Source of the DNA: Desulfobacterales bacterium
Lineage (GTDB): Bacteria > Desulfobacterota > Desulfobacteria > Desulfobacterales > JAIPEE01
Reading direction: 5' to 3'
Assembly (NCBI GenBank): GCA_021737275.1
Contig: JAIPEE010000038.1
Span: 1-34,831 of the forward strand
DNA length: 34,831 bases
Program-made: the position numbers and the translations under genes
Notes under the pieces: model-generated
What the model saw: the letters and a program-made list of their open reading frames with translations, nothing else
Told to the model about the DNA's origin: nothing
Databases searched by the model: none
Shown: piece after piece, positions 2,696 through 34,349 of the stretch
Position numbering within the stretch: position 1 is the first letter of the stretch
Layout: each line of letters starts with the position of its first letter

Positions 2696-2874
2696 ATTTT
2701 TGCCTCCTTTTCTTATAGTAATAAAAATTACTCCTTGTAATCAAATAAACAAATCAATTCCAATCCAGATAAAACCCACAATGATCTTCCCCCGAAAAAA
2801 TGGAAACGAAGTTAAGCAACTTTTTTCATTTAATTATGAAATTTTAAAATGCATATAGGTTTCAGAGCTTTCAC

Positions 2875-4938: not shown

Positions 4939-4941
4939 TTC

Positions 4942-6825: not shown

Positions 6826-7106
6826 TTTAAACTCCTTAACTTTTTGTTTAAATTAATTCCCCGGAGATTTCTACGACGAGGGTATCTATTCGTAACTCCG
6901 TTCTGCTATCAGCGAGGTAGTTTACTGTTTTTCTTTGAATTTTTTTCAGATAATTCTACTTAATGCTTTCCATAGCATATTTTAAAAAACTCCGACTCAA
7001 AAATGACATATAAGTTGTTATTTTTATTATGCCCTCTCTATTAGTCAATGAGTGGACAACAACTAAATAATTGCTATAAATCTTTAGTATCAGAGTAATA
7101 AATTAC
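6826..7106. other. 281-base gap inside the cyclic-amide operon
   Basis: No open frame is convincing. A 16-base perfect palindrome, GAGTAATAAATTACTC (7093-7108), overlaps the stop codon of the amidohydrolase and could form a small hairpin; it has no U-tract on the minus strand. I found no well-spaced sigma-70 or sigma-54 promoter for hyuB here. Confidence 0.4.
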
Positions 7107-8387: not shown

Positions 8388-8499
8388 GTTTTTATCCTTT
8401 TATTTAATTAAGTAATGTAATAATTTTAGAACTTTAAAGAATGATACCCCCTTTTATGAATTCTAAAAGACTATTTAGCATAATATCTTTGCCGGATAT

Positions 8500-9468
8500 T
8501 CATTTTTTTTTACCTAAAATCAATTTGTCCAGGAAGTCAATGTAACCAATAACGCCTTTTGGCATGTAAATAATTGAGGCTACAACGGTGGCACCCAAAA
8601 TTACAAGGCGATAAAGCCCAAAACCTCGCAAAAATTCACTCAAAAGTGTTATAATAAAAGCGCCTAACAGTGCTCCTGGAAATCTCCCAGTTCCACCAAA
8701 TTCAACCATCATGATTACTGTCAGAAAGAGATCAAGACCGAGCAATTTAGGTGAAAGAACTGTAACGTAGTGGGCATAAAAAGCCCCCATGATACCAGTA
8801 ATAAATGCAGAGATCCCGAATACAATGAGTTTGTATTTATAATCGTTAAGTCCAAGACTTTTTGCAAATTCCGGTGAGTCTCTAAACCCTATAAATCCGA
8901 GGCCAATTTTAGAGTGAATAACACGATAGATGATATAGAGGCATATCCCTGATATTACCAATCCGGTGTAATAATATGGAATCTTTTGAACTCCATATTC
9001 ATAGTGAAAAAAACTCAATGTTGGGATGCTGGAAAGGCCACCAGATCCACCACTACCAAATCTTTCTGCCCAAAGAATCAAATAGGGAACTGAATCTGCA
9101 GCGGCGAGAGTCAACAATGCAATATAAACACCTTTTAATCTCAAACAAGGCCCTGCCATGATTAGGCCGAAAACAGATGCTGAAATGCCACCGGATAAAA
9201 TTCCTAACCATGGGGACCATCCCAGTTCCTTTGCTAACATCGCGGATGAATAGCCCCCAAAGACAAAAAAAGCTATTTGTCCAAGAGAAAATATACCAGA
9301 ATATCCCATGATCAAATTCCAGGCTTCAGCAACCGCAGCCCATATAAAACAAAGGATAAGAAGATGAAGGAAATATTCGTCTTGTACAAATACAGGGAAA
9401 ACCAGGAGTATCAAAATAAAAATCAGACTAATAAAAATTTTATATTCTTTTAAAATTTTATAATTCAT
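8500..9468 (-). CDS. livM: Branched-chain-type ABC permease LivM
   Basis: A 322-residue inner-membrane permease with about nine hydrophobic segments. It shows the LivM pattern: LxxGYSGIFSLGQIAFFVFGGY near 54-73, then the cytoplasmic loop IGLGFIGFRDSPEFAKSLGL that contacts the ATPase, and a C-terminal VIYMPKGVIGYID-type end. It works with the LivH, LivG and LivF proteins just upstream and the binding protein at the head of the operon. It starts six bases after livH. 'Liv' is a family label; in this setting the cargo is more likely a cyclic amide or ureide than an amino acid. Confidence 0.9.
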   Translation of the reverse strand: MNYKILKEYKIFISLIFILILLVFPVFVQDEYFLHLLILCFIWAAVAEAWNLIMGYSGIFSLGQIAFFVFGGYSSAMLAKELGWSPWLGILSGGISASVFGLIMAGPCLRLKGVYIALLTLAAADSVPYLILWAERFGSGGSGGLSSIPTLSFFHYEYGVQKIPYYYTGLVISGICLYIIYRVIHSKIGLGFIGFRDSPEFAKSLGLNDYKYKLIVFGISAFITGIMGAFYAHYVTVLSPKLLGLDLFLTVIMMVEFGGTGRFPGALLGAFIITLLSEFLRGFGLYRLVILGATVVASIIYMPKGVIGYIDFLDKLILGKKK

Positions 9469-9474
9469 TATAAA

Positions 9475-10344
9475 TTAACCCCAAGATCCCAAGAGGCCTT
9501 TAGGCCTTATTGCCAGAATTAAAATAAACAGCAACGTCCAGAAAGGAAACACCCATAGCGGCCCAATATAAAGGGAAACCATGGCTTCAACAAGACCCAA
9601 TATAAAAGCAGCATAAAGAGTCCCGGAAAGACTACCGAGTCCTCCAAATGCAACAATTATAAACCCTTTAATCAGTGGGCCCCAGCCTCCAAGTGGTGTA
9701 ATGTAAAACTTGGGAGCCATAAGAATTCCGGCAATTGCTGCCAAAACAACAGAAATTCCAAATGTTCTTGAAAATAACTGATCAACTTTAATACCAATGA
9801 TTTGGGCGCCTACAACGTCTTGAGATACTGCACGTATAGCCATACCAGTCTTAGTTTTTGAAAGATACAATTTGACAAATATTATCGTTATTATTCCCAC
9901 AAAAAAAATGATAATTTCGTGTTTACTCATAACATAGCTCTGGAACTTCACTGTCCCATTAAGAATGGGGGGAAGCATTTTGGTTCGAGGGTTAAAAATG
10001 ATCTGACATAAATTATCTAGCATGATTGCTGTAGCAAGAGTGGCAACTATGGTTGTGAATTGCCAGTCAGACTTCCAGCGGAGAGGACGAATGACAATAC
10101 GTTCAAGAGCTATCCCAAAACAATACATGACCGGCAATACGATAATGAAGGTGATCAGATAGTTTAGTCGGAACTGGTTAATACATAACCATGCGAGATA
10201 TGCGCTCCAAGTAAACATGGTACCATGAGCGAAATTAAAAATCTTTGAGACACCATATACCAAGCATAACCCCATGGCAATAACTGCATAAATAGATCCA
10301 AGTGTGATTCCGCTAATTATTGCTTCAATTAACTGATAAGTCAT
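9475..10344 (-). CDS. livH: Branched-chain-type ABC permease LivH
   Basis: A 289-residue inner-membrane permease. The N-terminal GITLGSIYAVIAMGLCLVYG and KIFNFAHGTMF segments are the LivH signature. The cytoplasmic coupling loop is KTGMAIRAVSQDVVGAQIIGI, and the protein ends in the family's AIRPKGLLG motif. About eight hydrophobic spans. Its start lies inside the last 20 bases of livF, so translation is coupled. Partner of LivM, which follows after six bases. Confidence 0.9.
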   Translation of the reverse strand: MTYQLIEAIISGITLGSIYAVIAMGLCLVYGVSKIFNFAHGTMFTWSAYLAWLCINQFRLNYLITFIIVLPVMYCFGIALERIVIRPLRWKSDWQFTTIVATLATAIMLDNLCQIIFNPRTKMLPPILNGTVKFQSYVMSKHEIIIFFVGIITIIFVKLYLSKTKTGMAIRAVSQDVVGAQIIGIKVDQLFSRTFGISVVLAAIAGILMAPKFYITPLGGWGPLIKGFIIVAFGGLGSLSGTLYAAFILGLVEAMVSLYIGPLWVFPFWTLLFILILAIRPKGLLGSWG

Positions 10345-11062
10345 GAACAGCTCCTCGATTCTTACCTAAATAGGCAGCTTTAATTATAGGATTATTCATT
10401 GCTTTTTTTGTGGTGTCACCATAGGTTATTCTCCCATCTTCCATCAGGTAGATATGATTGGCGATGCTACCCGCTAATTTTATGTTTTGTTCCACTAAGA
10501 GAATTGTTATATTTTTTTCATTTATATCTTTAATCTTTTTGAAAACTTCATTCGTAAGCAAGGGTGATAAACCTAATGATGGCTCGTCTATAGCAAGAAA
10601 ACTTGCACCAGACATCAACCCCCGACCAATAGCCAGCATTCGAAGCTCGCCTCCACTTAAGGTTGAAACAATTTGGGCTTTACGCTCCGATAGACGCGGA
10701 AACAATTTGAAAACCAATTCGAGACTATGATTCATCTTCGGCCAAGCAAAGCAGTTGTATGCCCCTAATTTGAGATTTTCAAGGACAGTCATCTCTACAA
10801 ACAAATTTCTTTCTTCTGAGATATAGGTGAGTCCCATTTCAACGGTTTTGTCAACCGGCAAGTTATTAATATTTTTATCGCGGAATTTGATACTTCCTGA
10901 AGTGGTCCTAATTAAACCCGCAATTGTCTTCAGGAGGGTGCTTTTACCATGACCATTTGGACCTACAAGCAAAACCAATTGGCCTTCTTTTACACTTAAT
11001 GAAACATCTTTCAAAACATGAAATTCATCATAGTAAGCATTTACTTTTTCCAGTTGCAGCAT
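10325..11062 (-). CDS. livF: ABC transporter ATPase LivF
   Basis: A 245-residue nucleotide-binding protein. Walker A reads GPNGHGKST (residues about 34-42), with His where Ala is usual; the signature is LSGGELRML, Walker B is ASFLAIDEPSLGLSP, and the switch histidine region is ILLVEQN. These are standard LivF features. It starts one base after livG and overlaps livH by 20 bases. It energises uptake together with LivG. The Ala-to-His change leaves the Lys and Ser/Thr nucleotide ligands intact, so the protein is probably active. Confidence 0.9.
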   Translation of the reverse strand: MLQLEKVNAYYDEFHVLKDVSLSVKEGQLVLLVGPNGHGKSTLLKTIAGLIRTTSGSIKFRDKNINNLPVDKTVEMGLTYISEERNLFVEMTVLENLKLGAYNCFAWPKMNHSLELVFKLFPRLSERKAQIVSTLSGGELRMLAIGRGLMSGASFLAIDEPSLGLSPLLTNEVFKKIKDINEKNITILLVEQNIKLAGSIANHIYLMEDGRITYGDTTKKAMNNPIIKAAYLGKNRGAVHDLSVN

Positions 11063-11063
11063 G

Positions 11064-11783
11064 TCAGTCTATTCCTTCCCCTATATAATCCTTGATGACA
11101 TGTTTGTTATTTATGACATCGTTGGGTAGACCGATGCATAACTTCTTTCCGAAGCTCAATATGAGCAATCGATCGGATAAATCCACAAGATATTCCATAA
11201 GGTGTTCGATCATCAATATTGTTACACCTGTTTTGGCCCTGATCTGGTAGATCAGAGCCAAAAATTGATCGATCTCGTCTGGATTAAGTCCTCCAATGGG
11301 TTCATCAAGTAGAAGTAATTTGGGCTTTGTGGCCATGGCTGTAGCCAACATTGTCTTTTTTTTGGTAAAAAGATCAATGTTTTTACCTTCAATATCTTTT
11401 TGGGATTGAAGATTCATTAATGTTAACAATTTATCAATGGTTATTTCAATGTTTCTTTTTTTTCCAGGGTTACCAAATTGGATGCCGAATTTAATATTAT
11501 CATGTACACTCAAGCTTGGGAATATAGTAGGAATTTGAAAAGTTCTTGCGATTCCATGATAGCATGCCTGATAAGGTGTGAGCCGGGTTATATCCTGTTC
11601 TCGGAATTGTATTTGACCAGTACTATGGTAGTATCCGGCCAAAATATTAAAAAGGGTAGTTTTTCCGGCTCCGTTTGGCCCAGCAATACCCAAGAATTCA
11701 CCTTCCTGGACATCAAAGCTTAGATTTTCAATTGCAACAAGGTTGCCAAATTTAAGGCCAATATTTTTTACTGAAAGTAACAT
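11064..11783 (-). CDS. livG: ABC transporter ATPase LivG with atypical signature
   Basis: A 239-residue nucleotide-binding protein. Walker A is GPNGAGKTT, the Q-loop lies in ARTFQIPTIFPSLSV, Walker B is PKLLLLDEPIGGLNPDE and the switch region is ILMIEHLMEYL. Where most ABC ATPases have LSGGQ, this one reads LFTKKKTML. Some Liv-type ATPases have relaxed signatures at this site, so it may be natural; in the dimer the paired LivF keeps LSGGE. It is the second gene of the operon, 68 bases after the binding protein. The ribosome site is weak. Confidence 0.88.
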   Translation of the reverse strand: MLLSVKNIGLKFGNLVAIENLSFDVQEGEFLGIAGPNGAGKTTLFNILAGYYHSTGQIQFREQDITRLTPYQACYHGIARTFQIPTIFPSLSVHDNIKFGIQFGNPGKKRNIEITIDKLLTLMNLQSQKDIEGKNIDLFTKKKTMLATAMATKPKLLLLDEPIGGLNPDEIDQFLALIYQIRAKTGVTILMIEHLMEYLVDLSDRLLILSFGKKLCIGLPNDVINNKHVIKDYIGEGID

Positions 11784-11851
11784 AACTGTCGCCCTATTGA
11801 ATTTATTTCCTACTTTAGCATCTGGTTAAATATCAGTTTTTATTGTGATTT

Positions 11852-13078
11852 TTACTTAATCCAGGGAGGTTTGGTATAGTGACCATGGACTTCATCACTC
11901 AGGTTCAACAAAACTTGTTTGCCGTTTACAATTTGATAATAATGCATCGGAATCTTATCGGCAGCCGAAATGGCATGCTGGTCTGTGGGATCAAAAACGT
12001 AAGTTCCGCAAAGACCAGTGTAAGGGGTTTTTACTATTTCTTCACAGATTGCTCGATATTTTTTTTCGCTTCCTACTTTTTTTACAGCTCTGCTCCAAAG
12101 CATTACTTCGTCATAACATATGGCAGAAGTACTGTAACCAGGTGATCGTCCGTATTTTTTTTCGAATTTATCCGCCCATTGTCTTGCCTCATCTTTGTGA
12201 TAAAGAGCCGCAATTGTTGTCGCCCAAGTTACTCCGTTGCCGGCTTCACCTGCAAGTTCCAGAAACTCCGGAATTGCCGGACCATATTGCATATATACGT
12301 GTGCATCGATTGGATTTTCGACAAATTGACGTATGAAGGACGCTTCTTCCATAGGAATCATATTTGAGAAAAAAATGAACGATGGATTTGTTGATCTTAG
12401 TTTTCCTAAAGTTGTACCCCATTCCGTGTGTCCAAATGGAACAACATCATCTACGACAATTTCCCAACCATCAGCTGCAGCTAATTTTTTAAAATCTTCA
12501 GTAATCCATTGGTTATATAAATACTCACTAGTTATGATCGCCACTTTTTTATTTTTTAATTTAACATCAGGATTTTGGGTCATCATTTTATATGCATACG
12601 GTGCGTAAAGTCCCTCGTCACCATCCATCATAAAAATATTCCAATAATTTTCAAGGTTTTCCCGCACCATATCTGTTGAAATATGGGTTGTATCCGCATG
12701 GAAGAAAGGCATATCATATTTCCCGGCTGTAGAAACATCCGCACCAGTATCAGCATAACCGGTAAATAGGGCATCCACTTTGTCCCGGCTGATTAATTTT
12801 TCAATGGCTGTAACAATCTTATCGGGTTCCAGATCTCCTGTGTCTCCAATTACGGTTTTGATTTTTTTGCCGAGCAATCCTCCAGAAGCGTTTATCTCTT
12901 CTACTGCCATCAAAACGCCCTTTAGCATATCATCTCCGTCACTCGCATAACTGCCTGTGTAGGGAATGGGAATTCCAACTTTGATCACCTCCTCTGCTTC
13001 TGCTTGAAAAACAAATAATCCCAAAATACCAAAACAAAAAATAGTCATCTGGAAAGCCAATTTTAATTTTTTAATCAT
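11852..13078 (-). CDS. Periplasmic substrate-binding protein of Liv-type importer
   Basis: A 408-residue type I periplasmic binding protein (Peripla_BP_6 family). It has a signal peptide: positive MIKKLK, a hydrophobic core at 8-24, and likely cleavage after Ala28 (QAEA|EE). The mature protein begins with VIKVGIPIPYTGSYASDGDDMLKG, the usual first strand and ligand loop of the family, followed by AVEEINASGGLLGKKI. First gene of the operon, with TAAGGAGG ahead of the ATG. It delivers the ligand to LivHMGF. Binding proteins in this family recognise amino acids, amides, urea and aromatic acids, so the ligand is open; the downstream genes suggest a cyclic amide. Confidence 0.9.
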   Translation of the reverse strand: MIKKLKLAFQMTIFCFGILGLFVFQAEAEEVIKVGIPIPYTGSYASDGDDMLKGVLMAVEEINASGGLLGKKIKTVIGDTGDLEPDKIVTAIEKLISRDKVDALFTGYADTGADVSTAGKYDMPFFHADTTHISTDMVRENLENYWNIFMMDGDEGLYAPYAYKMMTQNPDVKLKNKKVAIITSEYLYNQWITEDFKKLAAADGWEIVVDDVVPFGHTEWGTTLGKLRSTNPSFIFFSNMIPMEEASFIRQFVENPIDAHVYMQYGPAIPEFLELAGEAGNGVTWATTIAALYHKDEARQWADKFEKKYGRSPGYSTSAICYDEVMLWSRAVKKVGSEKKYRAICEEIVKTPYTGLCGTYVFDPTDQHAISAADKIPMHYYQIVNGKQVLLNLSDEVHGHYTKPPWIK

Positions 13079-13215
13079 GACATCCTCCTTATTTAATTAT
13101 TAGTATAGGAATTGAACACATCGAATTGGAGAAAATTGTAATAATGGTTTATTTTTAATGGCACTCTGTATGTCAACAACAAGGAAACTTCAGAATTGAG
13201 TAATCGGACATGCTA

Positions 13216-13244
13216 TTGACTATAAAACTAATTTGATGTAAATC
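13216..13244 (+). promoter_or_regulatory. Possible sigma-70 promoter of the TetR-type gene
   Basis: TTGACT at 13216-13221 is followed after 17 bases by TAAATC (13239-13244). The -35 is good and the -10 poor. If used, transcription would start near 13251, just before the palindrome at 13261-13274, so the regulator could also repress itself. Confidence 0.3.
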
Positions 13245-13260
13245 TATATTGGATTTTCGT

Positions 13261-13274
13261 TGATTATCTAATCA
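13261..13274. promoter_or_regulatory. Palindromic operator candidate for the TetR-type regulator
   Basis: TGATTATCTAATCA has perfect 6-base arms around a two-base centre. It lies in the divergent intergenic region and contains the -10 box of the operon promoter, the classic position for a repressor site. Binding by the adjacent regulator is inference from position. Confidence 0.55.
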
Positions 13275-13291
13275 GTCAATGTTATTGTCAA
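13263..13291 (-). promoter_or_regulatory. Sigma-70 promoter of the cyclic-amide operon
   Basis: On the minus strand TTGACA (13291-13286) is followed by a 17-base spacer and GATAAT (13268-13263): a full -35 consensus, ideal spacing and a 5/6 -10 match. Predicted start near 13256, about 180 bases before the binding-protein ATG. The -10 falls inside the palindrome at 13261-13274. Confidence 0.7.
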
Positions 13292-13334
13292 GAAAAAAAT
13301 GCATTTTACAACAAAAAAAAGAAAAATTAATCAT

Positions 13335-13970
13335 ATGAAACAAGATAGAAAAATTTCACGATCAGAACAAAAAAAAAATACTCGAAGAAAACTTATTCAG
13401 GCAACTTATGATGTGATTGCCCATGAAGGGATTGCAGGCGTAACCTTTGCAAAGGTAACGAAAAAAGCTGGTTATTCCTTTGGGATAATTAATTTCCATT
13501 TTGAAAGTAAGGAGCTACTTTTAAGAGAAACTCTAAATTTTTTGATGTCGGATTTTGAAATCTCCTGGAAAAACATCATAAAAGATGCTGACCTCTCACC
13601 TGTTGATAAGCTTCTTAAAATTATTAATATTTCATTACATCCACCCTTAGTTGAATATAGAAGAATTATCGTCTGGCTTGCTTTCAGTTCTGAACTTCAT
13701 ACTCGTGACACTTTTATGGAAATCAACAACAATCATGATCGTGAATGGGAAGACTGTATTGAAAACCTGATTCACCAGGTTGCCGAGGAAAGTTTTATTT
13801 CATACGGTATGAGCCTGAAACAGATAGCCATATCCCTGATATCTATAATTACAGGTTTTTGGATGGAGTTCTATTTTAATCCCGATCGACGAAACTCTGA
13901 AAATGCGGTCAATATTTGTGTGATATATTTATCCAACTTTTTTCCGACCCTTAAAAAGCAAATCAATTAA
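13335..13970 (+). CDS. TetR-family transcriptional regulator (BetI-like)
   Basis: A 211-residue TetR-family regulator. The N-terminal DNA-binding domain is complete: ARG-type helix RRKLIQATYDVIAHEG, then GVTFAKVTKKAGYSFGIINFHFESKELLLRETL, with the helix-turn-helix at about residues 33-52. The C-terminal ligand domain resembles the BetI/TetR_C_6 type. An ATG at 13299 in the same frame would add a basic 12-residue tail; I prefer 13335 because family members begin shortly before the first helix, though neither start has a good ribosome site. It is divergent from the importer operon and is its likely repressor, responding to the imported compound or a product. Confidence 0.85.
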   Translation: MKQDRKISRSEQKKNTRRKLIQATYDVIAHEGIAGVTFAKVTKKAGYSFGIINFHFESKELLLRETLNFLMSDFEISWKNIIKDADLSPVDKLLKIINISLHPPLVEYRRIIVWLAFSSELHTRDTFMEINNNHDREWEDCIENLIHQVAEESFISYGMSLKQIAISLISIITGFWMEFYFNPDRRNSENAVNICVIYLSNFFPTLKKQIN

Positions 13971-14123
13971 ATTACTCTTTTTACCTGTATTGCCAGATAT
14001 CCGTCTCTGAAAGCCTAAAATAATACGTATAGGAAGTATTACTTTTTAAAAAGAGAATTATTTAACATCTTCATCAAGATAAATGATCACGTCAGATCGG
14101 TTAAAGTTATCCGGCTGGAATAA

Positions 14124-14523
14124 TTTATAAAATGGCTTAATAAAAGAGCTTCTCAGAACCCTCCAAAAGGGTTGCTCGGCAATTCGATAAATTATGCGCC
14201 GCCCCCAATGGGAGAAGTTGATCGTTTATATAAAAGACGGACGCTTAAATCCTGATAACAATCTTGCAGAAAATACCATAAGGCCGTTTGTTGTGGGAGA
14301 AAGAATAGGTTGTTTTCTGGTCATCCAAGAGGAGTAGAAACCGCTTCAACATTTTATAGCCTGATAGAAACAGCGAAAGCAGCTGGACTGGATCCGTATA
14401 GTTATTTGCTATATATATTTGATTGATCTTCCCTTTCAGAAACCACAGCAGATTATAAAAAGCTGTTACCACTTAATGTCGATCGAAAAGAAATTCAAAC
14501 TATGGCCTTGAGTGTGTTTAATT
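14124..14523 (+). pseudogene. tnpC: IS66-family transposase (TnpC), C-terminal remnant
   Basis: Read across frameshifts, this DNA encodes the conserved C-terminus of IS66-type transposases: FIKWLNKRASQNPPKGLLGN-like text, then WEKLIVYIKDGRLNPDNNLA with ENTIRPFVVG after it, then LFSGHPRGVETASTFYSL and ETAKAAGLDPYSYLLYIF, ending with DYKKLLPLNV. At least two frameshifts (near 14205 and 14300) and an in-frame TGA near 14424 break it, and the N-terminal two thirds are missing. Just after it, GACGCTTAT (14525-14533) resembles the IS66 terminal repeat end. It is a dead fossil copy, not a gene. Confidence 0.85.
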
Positions 14524-15951: not shown

Positions 15952-18345
15952 TTATAGCGCATGTATTGTTCTTTGAATTATATCATCTTGCATTTCGCGA
16001 CATAATTCGACAAAGTATGCGCTATAACCAGCGACTCTGACTATTAAAGATTTATATTGGTCAGGATTTTTTTGCGCTTCACGAAGCATCTCACTATCGA
16101 TAGTATTGAACTGGATGTGATATATATTTAAATCTACAAAAGATCTTAATAATGCAGCTATTCTTTTTTCTCCATCCACATCCTTTGCTACAAAAGGATC
16201 CAGTCTCATGTTTAATAGGGTCCCAGCGACGTGAGCATCATGATTAATTTTTGAAACCGATTTCAGTACAGCAGTTGGACCATTTCTGTCTGTCCCTCCT
16301 TTAGGAGAACATCCGTCTGCTAAAGGAGTTCCTGATAATCTACCATAAGGGAGGGCCGATACAACTAAACCATGCGGAACATGGGATGCAACCGGGTATA
16401 ATCCTGAAATAAAGTTTGGACCACGAAATGATTTATAACTGGTAATCTCATTAAAAGCAAAGTCGGTCATTTCCCGTGCAAAATTATCCACATAGTCATC
16501 ATCATTTCCAAAAGCAGGGCTTTGATTTATAATCTTTAATTTGAGATTGTCCCGGTTTTCGAAATTATTTTTAATTGCATCAATCATTTGTTCCATGCTA
16601 ACCGATTTGTTGTCATATACAAATTTTTTAATAGTTGCTAACGAGTTGGACAGATCTGCAATTCCGGTTCCAATAAATGCAGGACCTATAGTATATTTTG
16701 CTCCACCAACTGTTATGTCCATACCTTTTTCTAAGCAGCCATCAATAAGAGATGACATAAATGGATATGGCGTGAGCTCGGCATGTAGCTTCTCAGCAAT
16801 ATGACACGCTATAGCTATATTTCTAATAAAATAAGCCAAATGTGCCTTAGTTGCTTCTTTTAATTCATCAAATGTCATATTTATCGGGTCGCCAGTTTTG
16901 GGGCCGATCTGCTTATTCCCATTCATAAGACTGATGCCATTTGTGAGAGCAAATTCGATTGCTGACGCAAAATTATAGTGCCCCCCATCTGTCCATTTTG
17001 ACATTTTCCCTGGTATATAAGGTTCGACACAACCGACTAGTTGATAATTTCTAGCATCTTCAATGGTCGCTCCTGTTTGAAGCATCATTTTAATTGCTGC
17101 TTCATCGTTATGAATAGCTGGAAATCCAGTGCCCATTTTTGATAATTTTGCAACAGCTAATAAAAATTCCTCTGGACTTTGTTTATAAATTCGAACTGCT
17201 AATGATGGAGAATGCAGTTGAACATCCATTTTTGCTTTGATAAATTTATATGACAGCTCATTGGTAGCATCACTTCCATCAGGTTTGACACCACCGACAG
17301 TTATGTTTTGGTAAGGCTGATAGCCTGCAAAATACATAGCCGCATTTTTGCTTAAAAACCATGTATTTTCAGCAAACTTTAGGTATAAACACTCTATTAT
17401 TTCTAAAACTTCATTCTCAGAAAGCTCCTTTTTTTCAATATCACTTTTATAAAAAGGAAATAGATATTGATCAACTCTACCGGGTGAATATGAAGGCCCG
17501 TTACCCTCCATGTGGCTACCGATCTGAATAAACCAAAGTAATTGTACAGCTTCCCAAAAGGTTTGTGCTGGTTCTGCCGGTACCCGTTCACAAATTTTTG
17601 ATAATTTTTTAAGCTCTGCTTTTCGATTCGAATTGGTCTCTTCTTCCATCATTTTATTCGCAAGGTTTGCATATCGCTTCGCCAGCGAGATTAAAGCTTC
17701 TAGAGAAATTATTACGGCGTTATAAAAGTTAATTTTCTCAAAATCCTCTGGAATAGTATAGTTTAAACAAGAAAGTTTCTCTTTTGCTTCATTTATTATA
17801 AAATTGATTCCTTTATTAATTATCATTTCGAAACCAGGCGCAATTTCACCTGGCGCACTTTGTGTTTTAATCTCGACATCAATAATACCTGTTTTTACAG
17901 CGATTTGTTTTACATCTTGTGGTATCTGCTTTATCCAGTGGTCACTGATGGTTTTTCCTTCCCAATAAGGAAAAATACTACTTTTAAGTATTTTCTTTTG
18001 TTTATCTTTAACCTCATAGGGATCTTGGTGTCTTGTATCAAGCGTATCTATTTCATCTTTTAACCAATCGGATGCATGTTCAGGGCAGAAAATAGCAGCT
18101 CTTGGTTTAGATGCAGCGCCACCAATTATCAGCTCATTTCTTGAAATATTTATACTTTTTTTCTGACAATACTCTTTAAATGCTTTAGCCCTTCTGATAA
18201 TTATAGGCTCACCCTCTGTGTTTTTAAAAACATCAGTGTAAATAATAGCTCTCTCAATACAAAGTGAAGGTTGCAATTGGAAATATTTATCTAAAAGCTT
18301 ATTAATACGTTGAAACGGTGAAGTATTATGTTCTTTAATATTCAT
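15952..18345 (-). CDS. Glycyl radical enzyme, diol/hydroxyproline-dehydratase-like clade, substrate unknown
   Basis: A 797-residue glycyl radical enzyme, full length for the family. The C-terminal radical loop is RVAGYSAYF with Gly773; the thiyl cysteine is Cys439 in GCVEP with the general base Glu441. SPGRVDQY (287-294) and Asp453, 14 residues after the cysteine, match positions that bind substrate in glycerol/diol dehydratases. The GxVEP core and RVAGYSAYF ending exclude pyruvate formate-lyase and benzylsuccinate-type enzymes. Where glycerol dehydratase has its substrate-binding His164 (G-H-V/I), this protein has Gly166-Glu167. By my unaided alignment it also lacks the tyrosine that choline TMA-lyase has 17 residues after the cysteine (His456 here). 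It probably eliminates a leaving group from a small hydroxylated or amino compound. GGAGG six bases before the ATG fixes the start. Cytosolic and oxygen-sensitive. Confidence 0.9.
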   Translation of the reverse strand: MNIKEHNTSPFQRINKLLDKYFQLQPSLCIERAIIYTDVFKNTEGEPIIIRRAKAFKEYCQKKSINISRNELIIGGAASKPRAAIFCPEHASDWLKDEIDTLDTRHQDPYEVKDKQKKILKSSIFPYWEGKTISDHWIKQIPQDVKQIAVKTGIIDVEIKTQSAPGEIAPGFEMIINKGINFIINEAKEKLSCLNYTIPEDFEKINFYNAVIISLEALISLAKRYANLANKMMEEETNSNRKAELKKLSKICERVPAEPAQTFWEAVQLLWFIQIGSHMEGNGPSYSPGRVDQYLFPFYKSDIEKKELSENEVLEIIECLYLKFAENTWFLSKNAAMYFAGYQPYQNITVGGVKPDGSDATNELSYKFIKAKMDVQLHSPSLAVRIYKQSPEEFLLAVAKLSKMGTGFPAIHNDEAAIKMMLQTGATIEDARNYQLVGCVEPYIPGKMSKWTDGGHYNFASAIEFALTNGISLMNGNKQIGPKTGDPINMTFDELKEATKAHLAYFIRNIAIACHIAEKLHAELTPYPFMSSLIDGCLEKGMDITVGGAKYTIGPAFIGTGIADLSNSLATIKKFVYDNKSVSMEQMIDAIKNNFENRDNLKLKIINQSPAFGNDDDYVDNFAREMTDFAFNEITSYKSFRGPNFISGLYPVASHVPHGLVVSALPYGRLSGTPLADGCSPKGGTDRNGPTAVLKSVSKINHDAHVAGTLLNMRLDPFVAKDVDGEKRIAALLRSFVDLNIYHIQFNTIDSEMLREAQKNPDQYKSLIVRVAGYSAYFVELCREMQDDIIQRTIHAL

Positions 18346-18858: not shown

Positions 18859-19563
18859 TTATAATCCAAGATACGCCTTTTTAATATGTTCATTATTTTG
18901 GAGTTCAATATTTGTTCCTCGAAATACGATACGTCCAGTTTCTAATACATATCCTTTATCAGAAAGCTTCAAAGCCAAGCTAGCATTTTGTTCAATCAAT
19001 AAAATAGAGATATTTTTAGTTGAAATTTGTTTTATAATTAAAGCGACTTCTTTAGTAAGCAATGGAGATATTCCCAAAGAGGGTTCATCAAGAAGAAGTA
19101 TTTTAGGTTTCGCCATCAAACCTCTACCAATAGCAAGCATTTGTTGCTGGCCACCACTTAATTTTGATGCTTCTCGATTCTTTGCAATTTTAAGATCAGG
19201 AAAATATTCAAACACTTCGTTTAAATCCTTTTTTATTTCATCTTCATTGTTTCTTAAAAATGCACCAATTAAAAGATTATCCAAAATATTCATTTCTAAA
19301 AAAAGGTGTTTACCTTCTGGTACATGTACAATACCTCTTGAAACAATTTGTTCTGGCGTTAATCCATCTATTCTCTCATCATTTAAATATATTTTCCCTT
19401 CAGTTAAAGGTGCCAATCCTGAAATAGCACGTAAACAAGTACTTTTCCCTGCGCCGTTAGATCCAATCAGTGTTGTTATTGATCCTTCTTTCACTTCAAT
19501 TGAGATATCATCAATGGCGTTTACTTGGCCATAATGAACCGATACATTTTCTAGCTTTAACAT
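18859..19563 (-). CDS. livF: ABC transporter ATPase LivF (second system)
   Basis: A 234-residue nucleotide-binding protein with Walker A GSNGAGKST, signature LSGGQQQML, Walker B PKILLLDEPSLGISP and switch region ILLIEQN, all canonical for LivF. Its start overlaps the end of livG by seven bases. It is the last gene of the second importer; the glycyl radical enzyme follows after 513 bases on the same strand. Confidence 0.9.
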   Translation of the reverse strand: MLKLENVSVHYGQVNAIDDISIEVKEGSITTLIGSNGAGKSTCLRAISGLAPLTEGKIYLNDERIDGLTPEQIVSRGIVHVPEGKHLFLEMNILDNLLIGAFLRNNEDEIKKDLNEVFEYFPDLKIAKNREASKLSGGQQQMLAIGRGLMAKPKILLLDEPSLGISPLLTKEVALIIKQISTKNISILLIEQNASLALKLSDKGYVLETGRIVFRGTNIELQNNEHIKKAYLGL

Positions 19564-20351
19564 AATATTAAGTCATCCTCATCATCTGGGCTCCCCAAAT
19601 AAGCTTCAATCACCAATGAATTTTCACACACATTTTCAGGAGGACCTTCTGCAATTTTTTGACCAAAGTTTATTACAGTTAACTTATCACATGTGCTCAT
19701 AACAGCTCGCATGTTATGCTCAACAATTAAAATTGTAATGCCTTTTTCTCGAAGGCATTTTATTTTTTTCATTGTGTTTAGAGCTTCGACAGAGTTCATT
19801 CCTGTAATGGGCTCATCTAGCATAAGTAATTTTGGTTCTGTAGCCAAAGCTATAGCTATACCTAATGATCTTTGGTGGCCGTGTGGTAGTTCGCCAGCAA
19901 TTTCATTTTTTAGTTCTAAAAGACCCATAAACTCGAGCAATTCCAGAGACATTCGCATTGCTTCCTTTTCTTTTTCTTTAACTTTTCCTAACCCCAATAA
20001 TTGCGCAATAACGCCTATATTAACATGAAGATGATGTCCAATAAGAACATTTTGAAGTACTGTCATATCTTTTAATAACACATCAAGTTGAAATGTTCTG
20101 GCTATACCGTTTTTAACAATCGTGGATGGAGCGCTTCCAGTTATATTTTTTCCTTGCCATACTATCTTTCCTTTATTTGGAGTTAAAAATCCACTAATTA
20201 AATTAAATAATGTTGTTTTCCCAGCACCATTTGGGCCAATTAAACCTCGTATTTCTCCTTGTTCTAATTTTAAATCAATATCATGAACAACAAGGTTTTT
20301 GCCGAAACTTTTAAATAACCCTTCAACATTTAAAAAATATTTTTCAATCAT
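19557..20351 (-). CDS. livG: ABC transporter ATPase LivG (second system)
   Basis: A 264-residue nucleotide-binding protein. Walker A is GPNGAGKTT, the Q-loop is in ARTFQLDVLLKDMTV, the signature LPHGHQR is the relaxed form common in LivG, Walker B is PKLLMLDEPITGMN, and the switch region is ILIVEHNMR. The open frame extends upstream to a TTG at 20363, but the ATG at 20351 has GAGG at proper distance and is the better start, leaving 21 bases after livM. It overlaps livF by seven bases. Confidence 0.9.
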   Translation of the reverse strand: MIEKYFLNVEGLFKSFGKNLVVHDIDLKLEQGEIRGLIGPNGAGKTTLFNLISGFLTPNKGKIVWQGKNITGSAPSTIVKNGIARTFQLDVLLKDMTVLQNVLIGHHLHVNIGVIAQLLGLGKVKEKEKEAMRMSLELLEFMGLLELKNEIAGELPHGHQRSLGIAIALATEPKLLMLDEPITGMNSVEALNTMKKIKCLREKGITILIVEHNMRAVMSTCDKLTVINFGQKIAEGPPENVCENSLVIEAYLGSPDDEDDLILC

Positions 20352-20372
20352 AATTCGCCTCAAATAAATATA

Positions 20373-21350
20373 TTATTTAACTTTAGGGTTATAAAGTTTC
20401 CATAATTTTCTTACTTTTCTTGGTAATCCCTCCAATCCTTCAGGCAGAAAAAGAACGGTAACTATCAAAATAAACCCATAAACCATCGGTAACCATTCTG
20501 CTAAATTACGCAAAAGTATTTGTACAATTGTCAAAACCGTAACACCTAACAACGGACCAATAAAGGTTTTTGTCCCCCCAAAAAGAACCCAGACAATTAA
20601 GTAAAGAGTTGTTAAAAAACCAAAGGCTGAAGGATCGATTGATTGATAACGATGTGCAAAAACTACTCCGGCTATTCCAGCAAAGAAAGCTCCTATAACA
20701 AAAGATATCATCTTATATTGAGTCGCCTTAATGCCAACACTATTAACAATTCTGTCCTCCATTTCAATAGCTTTAAGCGTGTACCCGATTCGAGATTCAT
20801 CTATTCGATATAAAATGATTAAAGAAACTCCTGTTATTAGGAACGTTAAATAGTAATATGGTATTGAATCATAGAAATTAATTGAAAATAATCCAGGAAT
20901 TATAATTTCATTTGGAACGGGAATCATAACAATACCTCGATGGCCACCAAATGGATAGCGAATTCTTGTCCATGCAAGTCTCATTGCTTCACCTGCTGCA
21001 AATGAGGCGATAAAAAATGCAAAACCTTTAATTCGAACTAAAGGAAAACTCATCACCCAACTAATCAAAGCAGCAACTGCACCACCAGTAGGAAGGGTAA
21101 TCCAGAAAGGCCAACCATAATATCTAGTTAAGATTGCACTTGTGTAAGCTCCAAGTCCCATTAGAGGAATGTGAGCTAAGGACCACCCACCCATCGTAGT
21201 TATCAATCTGAAGCTTGATACTAAAATAAAATTTATAAGAAGTGTAATAGCTACATCGCGATGATATTCACTAAGTAAAAAAGGCAAACCAATAAATGCT
21301 AATGTAATAATCAAAAATCCGTAGAATTTGGATGAATTATTTTTCTGCAT
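20373..21350 (-). CDS. livM: Branched-chain-type ABC permease LivM (second system)
   Basis: A 325-residue inner-membrane permease with about nine hydrophobic segments. It has the LivM-type GGWSLAHIPLMGLGAYTSAIL segment (about 54-73), the coupling loop ESRIGYTLKAIEMEDRIVNSVGI and a C-terminal LFLPEGLEGLPRKVRK end. It overlaps livH by 14 bases. Pairs with LivH, LivG and LivF of the same operon. Confidence 0.9.
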   Translation of the reverse strand: MQKNNSSKFYGFLIITLAFIGLPFLLSEYHRDVAITLLINFILVSSFRLITTMGGWSLAHIPLMGLGAYTSAILTRYYGWPFWITLPTGGAVAALISWVMSFPLVRIKGFAFFIASFAAGEAMRLAWTRIRYPFGGHRGIVMIPVPNEIIIPGLFSINFYDSIPYYYLTFLITGVSLIILYRIDESRIGYTLKAIEMEDRIVNSVGIKATQYKMISFVIGAFFAGIAGVVFAHRYQSIDPSAFGFLTTLYLIVWVLFGGTKTFIGPLLGVTVLTIVQILLRNLAEWLPMVYGFILIVTVLFLPEGLEGLPRKVRKLWKLYNPKVK

Positions 21351-22200
21351 ACCCTAGTATTCCTTGTGGTCTAATAGATAGAAATGTCAACATAAATACA
21401 CTCGAAACGATCGAAGCAACAGTTGAATCGAATATTGTTGATACTATAGTATTCAAATAACCGAAAACCAAGGCAGCTATTATTGTTCCTTTTATGTTGC
21501 CTGCACCTCCGACAATTACTACAACAAAACATGTCCAAATTACTGAATGACCCATATAAGGTGTAACTGACATTATTGGGGCCATTAAGGCTCCGGCCAG
21601 ACCAGCCATTGCTGATCCAATCCCTAATGCTATAGCCGCACACTTATTGACATTTATACCATACAATGACGCAGCTTCGCTATCTAAAGCAACTGCTCGT
21701 AGTGCACGGCCCCATTTTGAATTTCTGAGGAAATAAAAAAAACCCAAAAAAACAATAACTGCAGAAGGTAAAATTATAACACGTTGCCAGCCAATTGTCA
21801 CACCAAATATATCTAATGCTCCTTTAAAAACAGCTGGAACAGGTTTTACATGTCCAACTCCCCACATCCGAGCTACAAACACCTGAATAATAAAGACCAT
21901 TCCGACAGAAATTATAAAACTACTAAGTGCTTTTCCTCTTACCGGCCTAAATATTATCCTTTCGACAATAATTCCTAATAATCCAACAAGTATTGTCGCA
22001 ATCCCAACCGCCAGAAAGAATGGCCAGTGATGTATAGCGTATAGTTGCCAAACAGTATAGGCTCCAATCATATAAAACTCGCCATGAGCATAATTCACAG
22101 TGTTCATAACTCCAAAGGTAAGGCTAAGACCAACTGCTATAATTGCGTAGAACGCACTGGCGATAAGACCATTAGCAATTGTTTGCAAAATAAGTTCCAT
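21337..22200 (-). CDS. livH: Branched-chain-type ABC permease LivH (second system)
   Basis: A 287-residue inner-membrane permease with the family N-terminus (GLIASAFYAIIAVGLSLTFG, then NYAHGEFYMIGAY), the coupling loop WGRALRAVALDSEAASLYGI and the C-terminal SIRPQGILG. About eight hydrophobic spans. It follows the binding-protein gene after 87 bases that hold a long stem-loop, and overlaps livM by 14 bases. Confidence 0.9.
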   Translation of the reverse strand: MELILQTIANGLIASAFYAIIAVGLSLTFGVMNTVNYAHGEFYMIGAYTVWQLYAIHHWPFFLAVGIATILVGLLGIIVERIIFRPVRGKALSSFIISVGMVFIIQVFVARMWGVGHVKPVPAVFKGALDIFGVTIGWQRVIILPSAVIVFLGFFYFLRNSKWGRALRAVALDSEAASLYGINVNKCAAIALGIGSAMAGLAGALMAPIMSVTPYMGHSVIWTCFVVVIVGGAGNIKGTIIAALVFGYLNTIVSTIFDSTVASIVSSVFMLTFLSIRPQGILGYAEK

Positions 22201-22287: not shown

Positions 22288-23568
22288 TTACCTTTGATTC
22301 CAAAGCAAGTCGTATTTTTTGAGATATTTTAGGGTAACTTCTTTATTTTTGTTATACCATTCGATTATATCATACTTATCTATTGTTACTTCTTCGCCAT
22401 TTAATATCTCAGTTATATACTGAGGTGATATAAGCGAAGTATTTATTCCAAAAACCTCATCGCCCCACCAATTTGAAGAGCCAAGCGTATGTGGTAAATC
22501 TTTAGAAGCCATCAAAGCGTTCCTTACTTTTTCAGGTTCAACAGATCCGGCTTTTTGTGCGCCATATGCCCATATTTGTAGTTGAGTCCTGTATTCATAA
22601 TCAATTGAATAATACTCACGACCTATATCATCTTTACCGCCCTTACCATAACGCTTTTGCCAATCAGAATAAAATTTATTTGCATCAGCTGGCAAAAGTT
22701 TATTATCTAGCCTGGGATAATGACCAACTGCATGATCTAGAAAGGACTTTGGAACCTTCGCAAATAGATCAGTTAATTCATATTCGCTAGTTTCAATTTG
22801 CCCTTTAAAACCTTGTAAATATAACTGCTCAACAAGATGTGCCCGGTACTCTGGCCAGGATGCACATAAGGAAACAACATCTGGTTTTGTTGCAAGAATT
22901 GCACTGATAATAGGGGCAAAATCTGTTGTTTCAGTGCTGTAAAATTTTGAATATACAATTTCCATGTTATTTGCTTCTGCAGCAGCCATAGCCCATGCCA
23001 TAGAACCACGTCCCGAAACTTCATCTTGAACTGTTAATGCAATTTTTTTATTTAGCGGATATTTGTCTGCAATATATTGTATAGAAACACAATGATACAT
23101 TGGATAGTTCTCAGATATTCCCATGTAGTAAGGATGTTCTGGTGCACATGTATCAGACGTCAAACCCATCACTATTACTTTTTGCCTTGTTACAAATGGT
23201 TGAATTGCAGTTGCATCAGCACCTCCCTGTGTCTGCAATAAAACAACATTATCTTGTAAAATTAGCTTTTTAACACCATCAATGGCTTTACTCGGAACAC
23301 CCTCCGTATCATATTTAATTATTTTAATTTTATATGTGTCATTTCCAACTTTAAGCCCGCCCTTGGAGTTCTGTTCATCTACCCATATATTTACTCCTGT
23401 AAGTCCTGGCAAACACCAACCAGATGCAGGGCCAGATAGCGGTCCAAGATAACCAATATTTACCGTTTTTGTTTCTGCAATAGGTTCCGAAATACTAATA
23501 CCGAGTGTAAAGATTATAGTAATTAATAACAAAAACAAAATTTCGAATCTTCCATAATTACATTTCAT
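22288..23568 (-). CDS. Periplasmic substrate-binding protein of second Liv-type importer
   Basis: A 426-residue type I binding protein (Peripla_BP_6 family). Signal peptide: basic MKCNYGR, hydrophobic core 9-26, likely cleavage after Ala31 (EPIA|ET). The mature part starts VNIGYLGPLSGPASGW, the expected first strand and ligand loop. Several tryptophans and tyrosines occur in the C-terminal half, which may matter for an aromatic-caged quaternary or amine ligand, but this is speculative. First gene of the second importer, 288 bases after the SDR gene, with AGGAGA ahead of the ATG. The ligand is unknown. Confidence 0.9.
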   Translation of the reverse strand: MKCNYGRFEILFLLLITIIFTLGISISEPIAETKTVNIGYLGPLSGPASGWCLPGLTGVNIWVDEQNSKGGLKVGNDTYKIKIIKYDTEGVPSKAIDGVKKLILQDNVVLLQTQGGADATAIQPFVTRQKVIVMGLTSDTCAPEHPYYMGISENYPMYHCVSIQYIADKYPLNKKIALTVQDEVSGRGSMAWAMAAAEANNMEIVYSKFYSTETTDFAPIISAILATKPDVVSLCASWPEYRAHLVEQLYLQGFKGQIETSEYELTDLFAKVPKSFLDHAVGHYPRLDNKLLPADANKFYSDWQKRYGKGGKDDIGREYYSIDYEYRTQLQIWAYGAQKAGSVEPEKVRNALMASKDLPHTLGSSNWWGDEVFGINTSLISPQYITEILNGEEVTIDKYDIIEWYNKNKEVTLKYLKKYDLLWNQR

Positions 23569-23856: not shown

Positions 23857-24624
23857 TTAAATTACAGTTCTCCCGCCATCAACCATTAACGTATGGCCAA
23901 CACACATACTCGAAGCTTCTGATACGAGATAAATAGCAGCTCCAACAATTTCTTTTACTTTTCCAACCCGACCAATAGGTAATGCATCTATAATCCAATT
24001 TTTGTATTCATCAGTTTCTAGATGTTCTGCAATCATAGGAGTGTCAAAATCGCAAGGTCCAATTGCGTTAACATTTATACCATGCTTAATCCAGTCTACA
24101 CTCAACACACGTGTTAATTGGTTTACTGCACCTTTGCTTGCACAGTAAACAGCTTGATTTGGTACACCTAAATAAGCATCTGTTGAACTAAAATTAACTA
24201 TTTTCCCATATTTCTGTTCAATCATAACCTTGCCCACTGCACGACAACAATAAAATGTTCCGTACAAATTAACTTTTATCACTTCGTCCCATTCTTCATC
24301 TGTTATCTCTTCACAAGGTCCAACTCTAAATATTCCTGCAGCATTCACTAAGATATCAATTCGAGAATATTTTTCTTTTACAAATTTAACCATATCTTCA
24401 ACACTTTTTTTACTCGTGACATCTACATAAAAAAAGTCAGAAGTAGCACCTTTTTCACGAATTTTGTTTATTACTGCTTCGCCACGATCTTTACTCCTTC
24501 CTGTTACCGCAACATTTGCTCCAAAATCTGACAATGCCTCTGCAACAGCAGCGCCCATGCCACTTGTACCTCCTGTAACTATTGCATTCTTACCTTCAAG
24601 AGAAAATATCGATTTGCAATCCAT
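23857..24624 (-). CDS. Short-chain dehydrogenase/reductase (SDR)
   Basis: A 255-residue classical SDR oxidoreductase. The cofactor motif TGGTSGMG spans residues 17-24; NAAG is at 94-97, and the catalytic Ser147, Tyr160 and Lys164 (YxxxK) are present. Arg43 after the second strand (TGRS) suggests NADP(H) preference. Cytosolic; members interconvert alcohols and carbonyls. It lies between the nucleotidyltransferase-like gene (42 bases upstream) and the second importer. I infer that it reduces or oxidises the aldehyde or ketone produced by the glycyl radical enzyme, or oxidises the imported alcohol. AAGGAGG before the ATG fixes the start. Confidence 0.9.
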   Translation of the reverse strand: MDCKSIFSLEGKNAIVTGGTSGMGAAVAEALSDFGANVAVTGRSKDRGEAVINKIREKGATSDFFYVDVTSKKSVEDMVKFVKEKYSRIDILVNAAGIFRVGPCEEITDEEWDEVIKVNLYGTFYCCRAVGKVMIEQKYGKIVNFSSTDAYLGVPNQAVYCASKGAVNQLTRVLSVDWIKHGINVNAIGPCDFDTPMIAEHLETDEYKNWIIDALPIGRVGKVKEIVGAAIYLVSEASSMCVGHTLMVDGGRTVI

Positions 24625-24666: not shown

Positions 24667-25422
24667 TTATCGTACCCGTTCTTCAATATCGTTATACCAT
24701 TTTATCTTATTTCCAACAATCGATCTAATTTTCCAAGATAATTTTTTTTGTTTAGTTTCAACAGAAGTAATTAACTGATCTATTCGCTTAATAATTATTT
24801 TATGATCAACATCCTTTAATACTTTAAACGAATTTAATTTGTTTTTAACTTTAATCAAATTGTTAGTTGCCGTATAATAAAAACCCCAATCACTTGATAA
24901 TATTTCAGCAATATATTTATCATCTATTTTATCTTTACTGTTTTTACCTATTTCATGTTCTAAAAAAAGAATTGCTAAATCTTTTAAGTCCTTTTCATTT
25001 ATTTCTATAATTTGAAGCTTTGTTAACAAAATATTTGATAAAGGAATTGTAGGATAATCCAATTTTAAACGACCCCGAAAATCAATAGTATGACACATTT
25101 CTAATTTATCAAAAAACACATCCACAATAATTCCAGAATTTTTATGGCTATATATATGTCTGTTTTTCCCATAGTATGCCATATGTCGTACTTCTGGTTC
25201 ATATCCAAGCTTTTGAAAAAATAATGGAAGTCTAGAATTATATTTACCGTATGACATAAAATCAATATCTGTTACAACTCTACTTAAATTTTGATAAAGT
25301 TCTGCATATTTTGGACAATGTAAAATAACAGATATAGCACCAACTAAACGTAAAGGTATGTTTTGATCATCTGCCGCTTTCATAATGATCTCATATTCCG
25401 TAAGAAATGTTTCTGTTTTCAT
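24667..25422 (-). CDS. Nucleotidyltransferase-fold protein of unknown function
   Basis: A 251-residue protein with the minimal nucleotidyltransferase pattern: RLVGAISVILH (25-35), then RVVTDIDFM with the DxD pair Asp52/Asp54, and a third carboxylate at Asp101 in IIVDVFFD. The order G-A ... TDIDF ... VDVFF resembles nucleotidyltransferases of the AbiEii/streptomycin-adenylyltransferase-like superfamily. The lysine-rich C-terminal half (140-251) is helical in character and not recognised. It lies between a metallophosphoesterase (27 bases upstream) and an SDR (42 bases downstream), so it is embedded in a metabolic operon rather than next to an obvious antitoxin. It may nucleotidylate a protein or small molecule; a toxin or a structural relic is also possible. 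Confidence 0.6.
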   Translation of the reverse strand: MKTETFLTEYEIIMKAADDQNIPLRLVGAISVILHCPKYAELYQNLSRVVTDIDFMSYGKYNSRLPLFFQKLGYEPEVRHMAYYGKNRHIYSHKNSGIIVDVFFDKLEMCHTIDFRGRLKLDYPTIPLSNILLTKLQIIEINEKDLKDLAILFLEHEIGKNSKDKIDDKYIAEILSSDWGFYYTATNNLIKVKNKLNSFKVLKDVDHKIIIKRIDQLITSVETKQKKLSWKIRSIVGNKIKWYNDIEERVR

Positions 25423-28624: not shown

Positions 28625-28640
28625 AGCAAAACATGTGCCA
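28625..28640 (-). promoter_or_regulatory. Sigma-54 (-24/-12) promoter
   Basis: On the minus strand TGGCAC (28640-28635) is followed by five bases and TTGCT (28629-28625), a full match to the sigma-54 consensus with correct spacing. Transcription should start near 28613, about 100 bases before the small orphan gene, and run through the permease, phosphoesterase and following genes. The gene immediately upstream encodes a sigma-54 activator. Confidence 0.85.
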
Positions 28641-34018: not shown

Positions 34019-34349
34019 CGTGCACCGCTTTGGATTTCTTGCGAACAGATTTTGGCAGGAGCGTCAATTTTTCCCTGGTTTGATGCAGGTATTTAGTCAG
34101 AGTAGTGTCATCGGCATCAAACAACTTGATACCAACAATGGTTGCCACTTCGAAAACGGCTCCGATTTCACATTTGAGGTTGCCTTTTTCGATGCGTTGC
34201 AGTAGTCCTCTGGAAATACCGGCTCGATCGGCCACTTCCTGAGCAGTGAGCTTACGCTCATTACGCGCTTCGCGGATTAATGCGCCAAGCAAGGCAGTCG
34301 CATCACGGTTATAGCGTGAGTAGGTGCGTGTGATGGCCTTTGACATCAT
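34008..34349 (-). CDS. hipB: HipB-type XRE-family antitoxin/repressor
   Basis: A 113-residue DNA-binding protein with a lambda-type HTH (ALIREARNERKLTAQEVADR, then GISRGLLQRIEKGN, about residues 24-58) and a C-terminal extension likely to contact HipA. It neutralises the kinase and represses the operon. ATG codons at 34349 and 34346 are both possible; GGGGA lies a few bases upstream and is better spaced for the second. It is first in the operon, overlapping hipA by 11 bases. Confidence 0.9.
   Translation of the reverse strand: MMSKAITRTYSRYNRDATALLGALIREARNERKLTAQEVADRAGISRGLLQRIEKGNLKCEIGAVFEVATIVGIKLFDADDTTLTKYLHQTREKLTLLPKSVRKKSKAVHDDF

Follow-up and report, generated by a model that had tools for sequence, protein, structure and literature searches.

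What does the glycyl radical enzyme encoded at positions 15952-18345 of contig JAIPEE010000038.1 of a Desulfobacterales bacterium (34,831 nucleotides, the whole stretch being called the window below) act on, and how is it related to the characterized members of its family? From its sequence, the protein is a glycyl radical eliminase that depends on an activase; its subfamily is uncharacterized and shares a superclade with choline trimethylamine-lyase (CutC). The sequence itself shows the two radical residues (glycine and thiyl cysteine), the C-x-E glutamate, the pairing with an activase, and the membership of family and clade. The most likely reaction, which we put forward tentatively, is that of a CutC-like lyase that would free a protonated amine from a small amino alcohol.

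The enzyme is specified by one intact minus-strand gene of 797 codons, identified from its open reading frame (ORF), with an ATG start immediately preceded on the 5' side by GGAGGA; the plus-strand translation of the same positions is full of stops. The product matches PF02901 (720.6 bits) and the glycyl radical domain PF01228 (109.8 bits; RVAGY motif). Relatives were compared in an alignment of 67 rows, chosen for their likeness to the window enzyme and hence no unbiased census. Rows duplicating one gene were removed (L001, L002, L003, L004, L006, L031) and L073 was never added; also left out were L037 (G630), a glycyl radical enzyme gene with one in-frame TGA, and, from the trees and site counts, the partial L005. 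Partial second genes in L042, L050, L054 and L056 were dropped as falling below the 480-bit cut, and matches lacking a locus were set aside (12 of 32 in one draw, 3 of 11 in another). The radical Gly773 and the thiyl Cys439 of the Cys loop align with Gly and Cys, respectively, in all 67 rows, and the C-x-E loop is present as Cys439-Val-Glu441. The initial annotation had numbered these residues, Glu167, Asp453 and the SPGRVDQY block correctly. The activase gene lies downstream on the same strand (Table 1), and a search of the window's genome with the enzyme (E <= 0.001) returned the enzyme itself as the sole match (two candidates scored).

The initial annotation had also left the specificity unassigned, and profile searches bear this out. 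The window enzyme passes the broad NCBIfam subfamily PFL2-3 / TIGR01774 (PFL2/glycerol dehydratase; 785.5 bits against a cut-off of 678.2), and with the subfamily match at E = 5.7e-236 a chance match is of no concern. It stays under the cut-off of every characterized glycyl radical family modelled in NCBIfam: CutC (TIGR04394), the highest-scoring equivalog model, reaches 753.3 bits against 1050, the sulfopropanediol dehydratase and isethionate lyase models NF048011 and NF048009 reach 687.8 and 576.5 bits against 1000, and the HypD model NF043068 reaches 637.8 bits against 1100. As controls, four CutC rows (1559-1661 bits) and one HypD row clear the thresholds of their own families by hundreds of bits.

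In a quick tree of the 67 rows, the window enzyme falls in a 33-row clade (Shimodaira-Hasegawa-like approximate likelihood ratio test, SH-aLRT, 99) that contains CutC, the window clade, a group of enzymes like that of structure 8id1, a Peptoclostridium acidaminophilum/Acetoanaerobium group and smaller groups. The molecule in 8id1 is called 'Formate C-acetyltransferase' in the PDB, a name alone that does not confirm the substrate. A second, more careful tree was built from 42 of the rows, L035 not among them, and supports the superclade of CutC and the window enzyme (ultrafast bootstrap, UFBoot/SH-aLRT, 100/99) and the window clade itself (100/100); CutC groups with the enzyme of locus L026 (100/99) inside the superclade. 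The initial placement of the enzyme on the diol/hydroxyproline-dehydratase side of the family is thus not supported; a forced pairing of the window clade with the diol dehydratase type (Citrobacter row) costs 194 log-likelihood units and is rejected by the approximately unbiased (AU) test (p-AU 4.57e-53; the HypD pairing lay outside this test). A union of L026 with the window clade, tried because their pockets agree, was also rejected (p-AU 0.013).

The site that set the window enzyme apart at first sight, Glu167, stands opposite the His of G-V-G-H in glycerol dehydratase, which we take to be His164, in a phmmer alignment with 1r8w, as the initial annotation had proposed; the alignment shows no histidine at this site in the window enzyme. 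The corresponding column of the 67-row alignment has His160 in HypD, Gln193 in isethionate lyase (IslA) and Asp216 in CutC, and the sulfonate-lyase rows carry Gln. The alignment can be trusted at the pocket because the published HypD and CutC residues fall on the right columns: the eight named for HypD (R156, H160, D278, S334, D339, F340, Y450 and T645, in PMC7077986) and the ten named for CutC (Y208, D216, T334, F389, F395, M487, T502, Y506, L698 and I700, in PMC8473560 and PMC12838924) were recovered with the right letter and spacing in the HypD and CutC rows. The column is a site known to touch the substrate. The HypD His is described as essential and proposed to tune the C-x-E glutamate (PMC7077986), and the CutC Asp as close to the trimethylammonium group (PMC12838924).

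All 33 rows of the clade with CutC are acidic at this site, with Glu in 25 and Asp in 8. The 34 rows outside it carry His (30), Gln (3) or Glu (1, L035, on a very long branch), and the residue type (acid, His or Gln) needs two changes on the 42-row tree. The acid is therefore a clade marker and not a private change, and the view of Glu167 as an exceptional replacement does not stand. In the sampled rows it marks the whole branch, and alone it is no cation-binding signature. The proposal that a carboxylate here would suit a cationic substrate fits CutC, the one characterized carboxylate-bearing relative, which binds a cation there; it fares worse with the 8id1-like group, which combines the same Glu with two pocket arginines and, in Enterococcus raffinosus, a nearby alpha-rhamnosidase gene. 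As this group shows sugar-type signs, the Glu could just as well serve an oxygen leaving group as its general acid.

The remainder of the pocket is related to that of CutC and distinct from it. With CutC (TIGR04394; structures 5fau, 9ht9 and 9f3w) the window enzyme shares the superclade, an acid at the beta-1 site, the FAGYQP-aromatic strand, Thr/Ser at Thr502 and the C-x-E loop, and the window clade retains the CutC-like elements F339, Q343-P344, Y/F345 and T/S452. CutC Phe395, at the window position Y/F345, is named as the cation-pi residue in PMC8473560. In contrast, identity to the Klebsiella CutC row is 39%, and eight of the ten pocket residues differ (Y208I, D216E, T334P, F395Y, M487V, Y506H, L698Y and I700V), although F395Y is mild, with Phe in two clade members. 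Among Tyr208, Asp216, Thr334, Thr502 and Tyr506 (window I, E, P, T and H) only Thr502 is kept, and the residue after it is an Asp in the window enzyme. Asp453 and His456 stand in the places of a Ser and a Tyr of CutC, and would be a better match for an amine with N-H groups than for a trimethylated amine.

The combination of Glu167, Asp453 and His456 occurs in 6 of the 67 rows, namely the five full-length members of the window clade and L026 (G241), which shares nearly the whole pocket at only 48% identity. The 8id1-like enzymes (about 42% identity, for L077) have the Glu at the same site but Arg at two pocket positions, and Ala, Phe or Leu, and Asp at positions 453, 454 and 456, where the window enzyme has Asp, Gly and His. 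In the isethionate/sulfopropanediol lyases, IslA Gln193 and Arg189 correspond to window Glu167 and Ser163. Ser287 and Asp292, initially listed as pocket residues, are widely shared motif residues (40 and 67 of the 67 rows) and thus poor indicators of specificity; the counterpart of the glycerol dehydratase residue that we take to be Ser282 is Ser285, not Ser287.

By analogy with its family, and given the C-x-E loop and the activase, the window enzyme very likely catalyses a radical 1,2-elimination, the type of reaction established for eliminases of this class. The radical on Gly773 would be handed to Cys439, which would abstract a hydrogen from the OH-bearing carbon, with Glu441 accepting the proton of the OH. 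Glu167, together with Asp453 and His456, would hold the group on the next carbon, and the departure of this group would leave an aldehyde (or ketone) behind. An amine leaving group is favoured by the two carboxylates and histidine, by the cation-pi position Y/F345 and by the kinship with CutC. The substrate would be ethanolamine or an N-substituted or longer relative, rather than choline itself: choline is disfavoured because two carriers of the window clade, G382 and G385, hold a separate CutC that scores above its own cut-off. Aldehyde ferredoxin oxidoreductase genes adjoin the enzyme gene on the same strand in three related loci (L002, L005 and L065), which suggests that the product is an aldehyde, to be oxidised in some hosts by such an oxidoreductase. 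Two of the oxidoreductases of the window's genome resemble those of the relatives (60% identical to that of L002 and 55% to that of L065).

Several observations weigh against an amino alcohol as the substrate. The branch adjoining the window clade consists of L027 and the 8id1-like group (91/84), not CutC, and in the 8id1-like group, with its same Glu, the pocket and the neighbours in one record point to sugars. Ranked per aligned stretch by phmmer, the solved structures give 8id1 (653.8 bits) and glycerol dehydratase 1r8w (645.0 bits) before CutC 9ht9 (641.7 bits); another CutC structure, 9f3w, tops the raw list solely through a second, degenerate copy in its chain. An AlphaFold2 model of the window enzyme, built on a six-sequence alignment, reached a mean predicted local distance difference test score of 55 and a predicted template modelling score of 0.49, with the pocket stretches below 50. 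The oxidoreductases of L002, L005 and L065 belong to different subfamilies (31-43% identity), and such genes are abundant in some hosts (12 in G241 and 13 in G000); the window's genome has 13, none of them on the window contig, and in G382, G383 and G385 none was found on the enzyme's contig. A 75%-identical short-chain dehydrogenase/reductase (SDR) adjoins the enzyme in L065 and the window SDR lies in the enzyme's gene series, which speaks for the amino-alcohol reading, but this SDR was matched at E <= 1e-55 in only two of the nine carrier or relative genomes. No transporter common to the clade loci was seen, L002 (7.4 kb) and L005 (3.6 kb) being too short to tell.

The best of the competing readings, a less likely one, is that the enzyme would be a polyol or diol dehydratase, possibly acting on a longer hydroxylated acid, with Glu167, in a pair with Asp453, as the general acid protonating the leaving hydroxyl. 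This pair would presumably replace the His164-Asp447 pair of glycerol dehydratase. With the B12-independent glycerol/propanediol dehydratases (1r8w, 5i2a) the window enzyme shares the fold family and the C-x-E loop, and its Asp453, Ser285, Tyr650 and Val652 match the diol dehydratase row; together with the Glu-bearing, sugar-linked adjoining branch, these residues favour an oxygen leaving group. The window SDR points the same way: its closest resemblance is to gluconate/polyol dehydrogenases, although it passes none of the NCBIfam cut-offs among the 25 matches listed. However, the window clade and the diol dehydratases lie far apart in the tree, as the failure of their forced pairing underlines, and no microcompartment or polyol genes were recognized by eye in the partly scanned ORF lists of the clade loci.

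In an improbable reading, the enzyme would be a C-O lyase that opens the ring of a cyclic ether sugar, the ring oxygen taking its proton from Glu167. The adjoining branch is again in its favour, and YbiW and PflD, which cleave anhydro-sugar phosphates according to PMC12441222, provide a precedent. Yet YbiW and PflD carry His at the site and belong to the opposite half of the tree, the two Arg of the 8id1-like group are replaced by Ile159 and Ser163 in the window clade, which hence has no obvious phosphate site, and no phosphotransferase system genes were recognized by eye in the window.

More improbable still is a HypD-like dehydratase acting on a cyclic hydroxylated amine. An amine-bearing substrate would suit the two carboxylates, HypD shares the family and the C-x-E loop, and genes of the hydantoinase A/B type are located close to the enzyme in L065 as in the window. 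None of the HypD residues His160, Asp278, Ser334 (window E, P and F), Tyr450 and Thr645 is kept, however, the HypD model is missed by a wide margin, the HyuA proteins of the two loci are only 33% identical, and the hydrolase cluster of the window has its own importer. Least probable of all is a divergent choline lyase, for which the superclade and the leading equivalog score argue, and against which stand the missed CutC cut-off, the far higher scores of the four CutC rows, the replaced pocket residues and the separate CutC of G382 and G385.

The amino-alcohol reading has an evolutionary side. Parsimony on the 42 rows makes Glu167, Ser285, Tyr650 and Val652 ancestral for the window clade and CutC, and the CutC states at these sites (Asp, Gly, Leu and Ile) derived; the ancestral states at Asp453 and His456 are ambiguous. 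Choline lyase would thus have arisen from a window-like pocket. The fuller version of this scenario, which we regard as doubtful, is that the window clade and L026 keep the pocket type ancestral to choline lyase and survive as B12-independent glycyl radical lyases for small protonated, ethanolamine-like amino alcohols, in relatives of a deltaproteobacterial metagenome-assembled genome (MAG) and in Clostridia. To our knowledge, such an amino-alcohol lyase reaction is familiar from B12 enzymes only; if the reading is true, the window enzyme would cleave amino alcohols anaerobically and without vitamin B12. In the gut, choline lyase drives the production of trimethylamine, and a small clade that shares an ancestor with CutC and has a different but related acidic pocket offers a direct route to the origin of the CutC pocket.

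The window clade comprises six loci. Besides the window these are L002/L007 (81% identity, from the same order), L005 (70-72%, C-terminal part only, from a Spirochaetes MAG, grouped by identity and outside the trees), L006/L028 (64%, Anaerovorax odorimutans SL.3.17), L003/L029 (59%) and L004/L030 (58%). Carriers at the clade level numbered 2 among 96 relatives and 1 among 297 genomes of the phylum (the window's own); further draws gave 3 of 297, 1 of 296 (the genome of L005), 1 of 391 and 3 of 286. These overlapping draws, the last four of them built around known carriers, show the clade to be rare. One scan of viral contigs gave no relative, and another gave four distant or partial ones. In a literature search over titles and abstract openings, with much of the glycyl radical literature outside it, no study of the window clade was recognized, though one may exist.

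The loci of the other clade members have partners of their own. L006 has a LuxR-type regulator together with an NCS1-type permease (PF02133, 35.9 bits against a cut-off of 23.5), L003 has look-alikes of these by eye, and a cupin in L004 narrowly passes the cut-off of the EutQ family (24.3 against 21). HyuA/HyuB were rejected as a conserved partner, as the genes of L065 are on the other strand and HyuA shows the low identity to that of the window given above. In L002, a 180-aa protein without a Pfam or NCBIfam match is encoded between the aldehyde oxidoreductase and the enzyme (2405-2947), and L004, a clostridial locus, has a second glycyl radical enzyme, 43% identical (3737-6178).

Table 1. 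Features of the window around the glycyl radical enzyme gene
Feature	Positions	Strand	Remarks
TetR-type regulator, BetI-like C-terminal domain	13299-13970	+	PF00440, PF13977; divergent from second Liv importer
Glycyl-radical enzyme activating protein, 302 aa	14928-15836	-	Radical SAM and ferredoxin-type motifs; TIGR02494 348 bits (cut-off 174.35); PF04055, Fer4 families
Glycyl radical enzyme, 797 aa	15952-18345	-	Glu167, Cys439, Glu441, Asp453, His456, Gly773
Liv-type ABC ATPase, importer 1	18859-19563	-	ORF, named by eye from sequence
Liv-type ABC ATPase, importer 1	19557-20363	-	ORF, named by eye from sequence
Two Liv-type ABC permease ORFs	20373-22200 (20373-21350, 21337-22200)	-	Named by eye
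Liv/urea-type periplasmic binding protein	22288-23568	-	Weak likeness to solved urea-/amide-binding proteins, best E 1e-08
SDR	23857-24624	-	75% identical to the SDR immediately upstream of the L026 enzyme
251-aa protein	24667-25422	-	Nucleotidyltransferase-like by eye; no Pfam/NCBIfam match
Metallophosphoesterase, 312 aa	25450-26388	-	PF00149, 23.6 bits over 21.5
APC-type permease, 547 aa	26473-28116	-	PF13520, PF00324
Sigma-54 (-24/-12) promoter-like site	28625-28640	-	Exact match to TGGCACNNNNNTTGCW; between activator and APC permease
PAS/sigma-54 activator with helix-turn-helix	28993-30729	-	51% full-length identity with a G087 regulator located close to another glycyl radical enzyme

On the minus strand of the window, the sigma-54 activator and the sigma-54 site are followed by the APC permease, the metallophosphoesterase, the 251-aa protein, the SDR, the five-gene Liv importer, the enzyme and the activase, with a gap of about 510 bases before the enzyme gene (Table 1). 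The activator and the exact site would probably activate the permease and the genes downstream. This is the only mismatch-free sigma-54 site in the window; looser sites are near the shuffle expectation (20 with up to two mismatches against 15.2 expected, a count reached in 13 of 100 shuffles), so that only the exact site is notable. No ligand was assigned to the Liv importers, as the matches of their binding proteins are limited to binders of the urea, amide and amino-acid types.

The initial annotation had taken the transporters as agreeing with a cationic or amine-bearing substrate. This argument is weak, since the APC permease belongs to a module that is repeated on another contig, while the enzyme was matched once only. 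The module of permease, metallophosphoesterase and 251-284 aa protein occurs twice in the genome (24667-28116 in the window and 12942-16489 in L110, contig C8), with about 42% identity between copies for the metallophosphoesterase and the 251-284 aa protein and 25% for the permease. The second copy is near look-alikes, by eye, of glycine-cleavage, lipoate and dihydropyrimidinase genes.

A separate minus-strand cluster at 1733-13078 encodes the second Liv importer, an amidohydrolase, hydantoinase/oxoprolinase A and B and a nitrilase-type hydrolase, and looks like a cluster for cyclic amide or imide breakdown. A HipA-like gene (32759-34018, minus strand; PF07804) and a small ORF overlapping its start (34008-34349) form a putative unit resembling a toxin-antitoxin pair.

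Two further observations concern the wider family. Nine of the 67 rows, all from the superclade and including Peptoclostridium acidaminophilum, have G-C-V-V-P, with Val for the C-x-E glutamate (L057 at 11992-14361, L038, L039, L058, L074-L076, L008 and L009), and the chemistry of these glycyl radical enzymes may differ. Another clostridial locus, L066 (2288-14523), has three glycyl radical enzyme-like ORFs by eye, the first of which was scored, with other genes between them.

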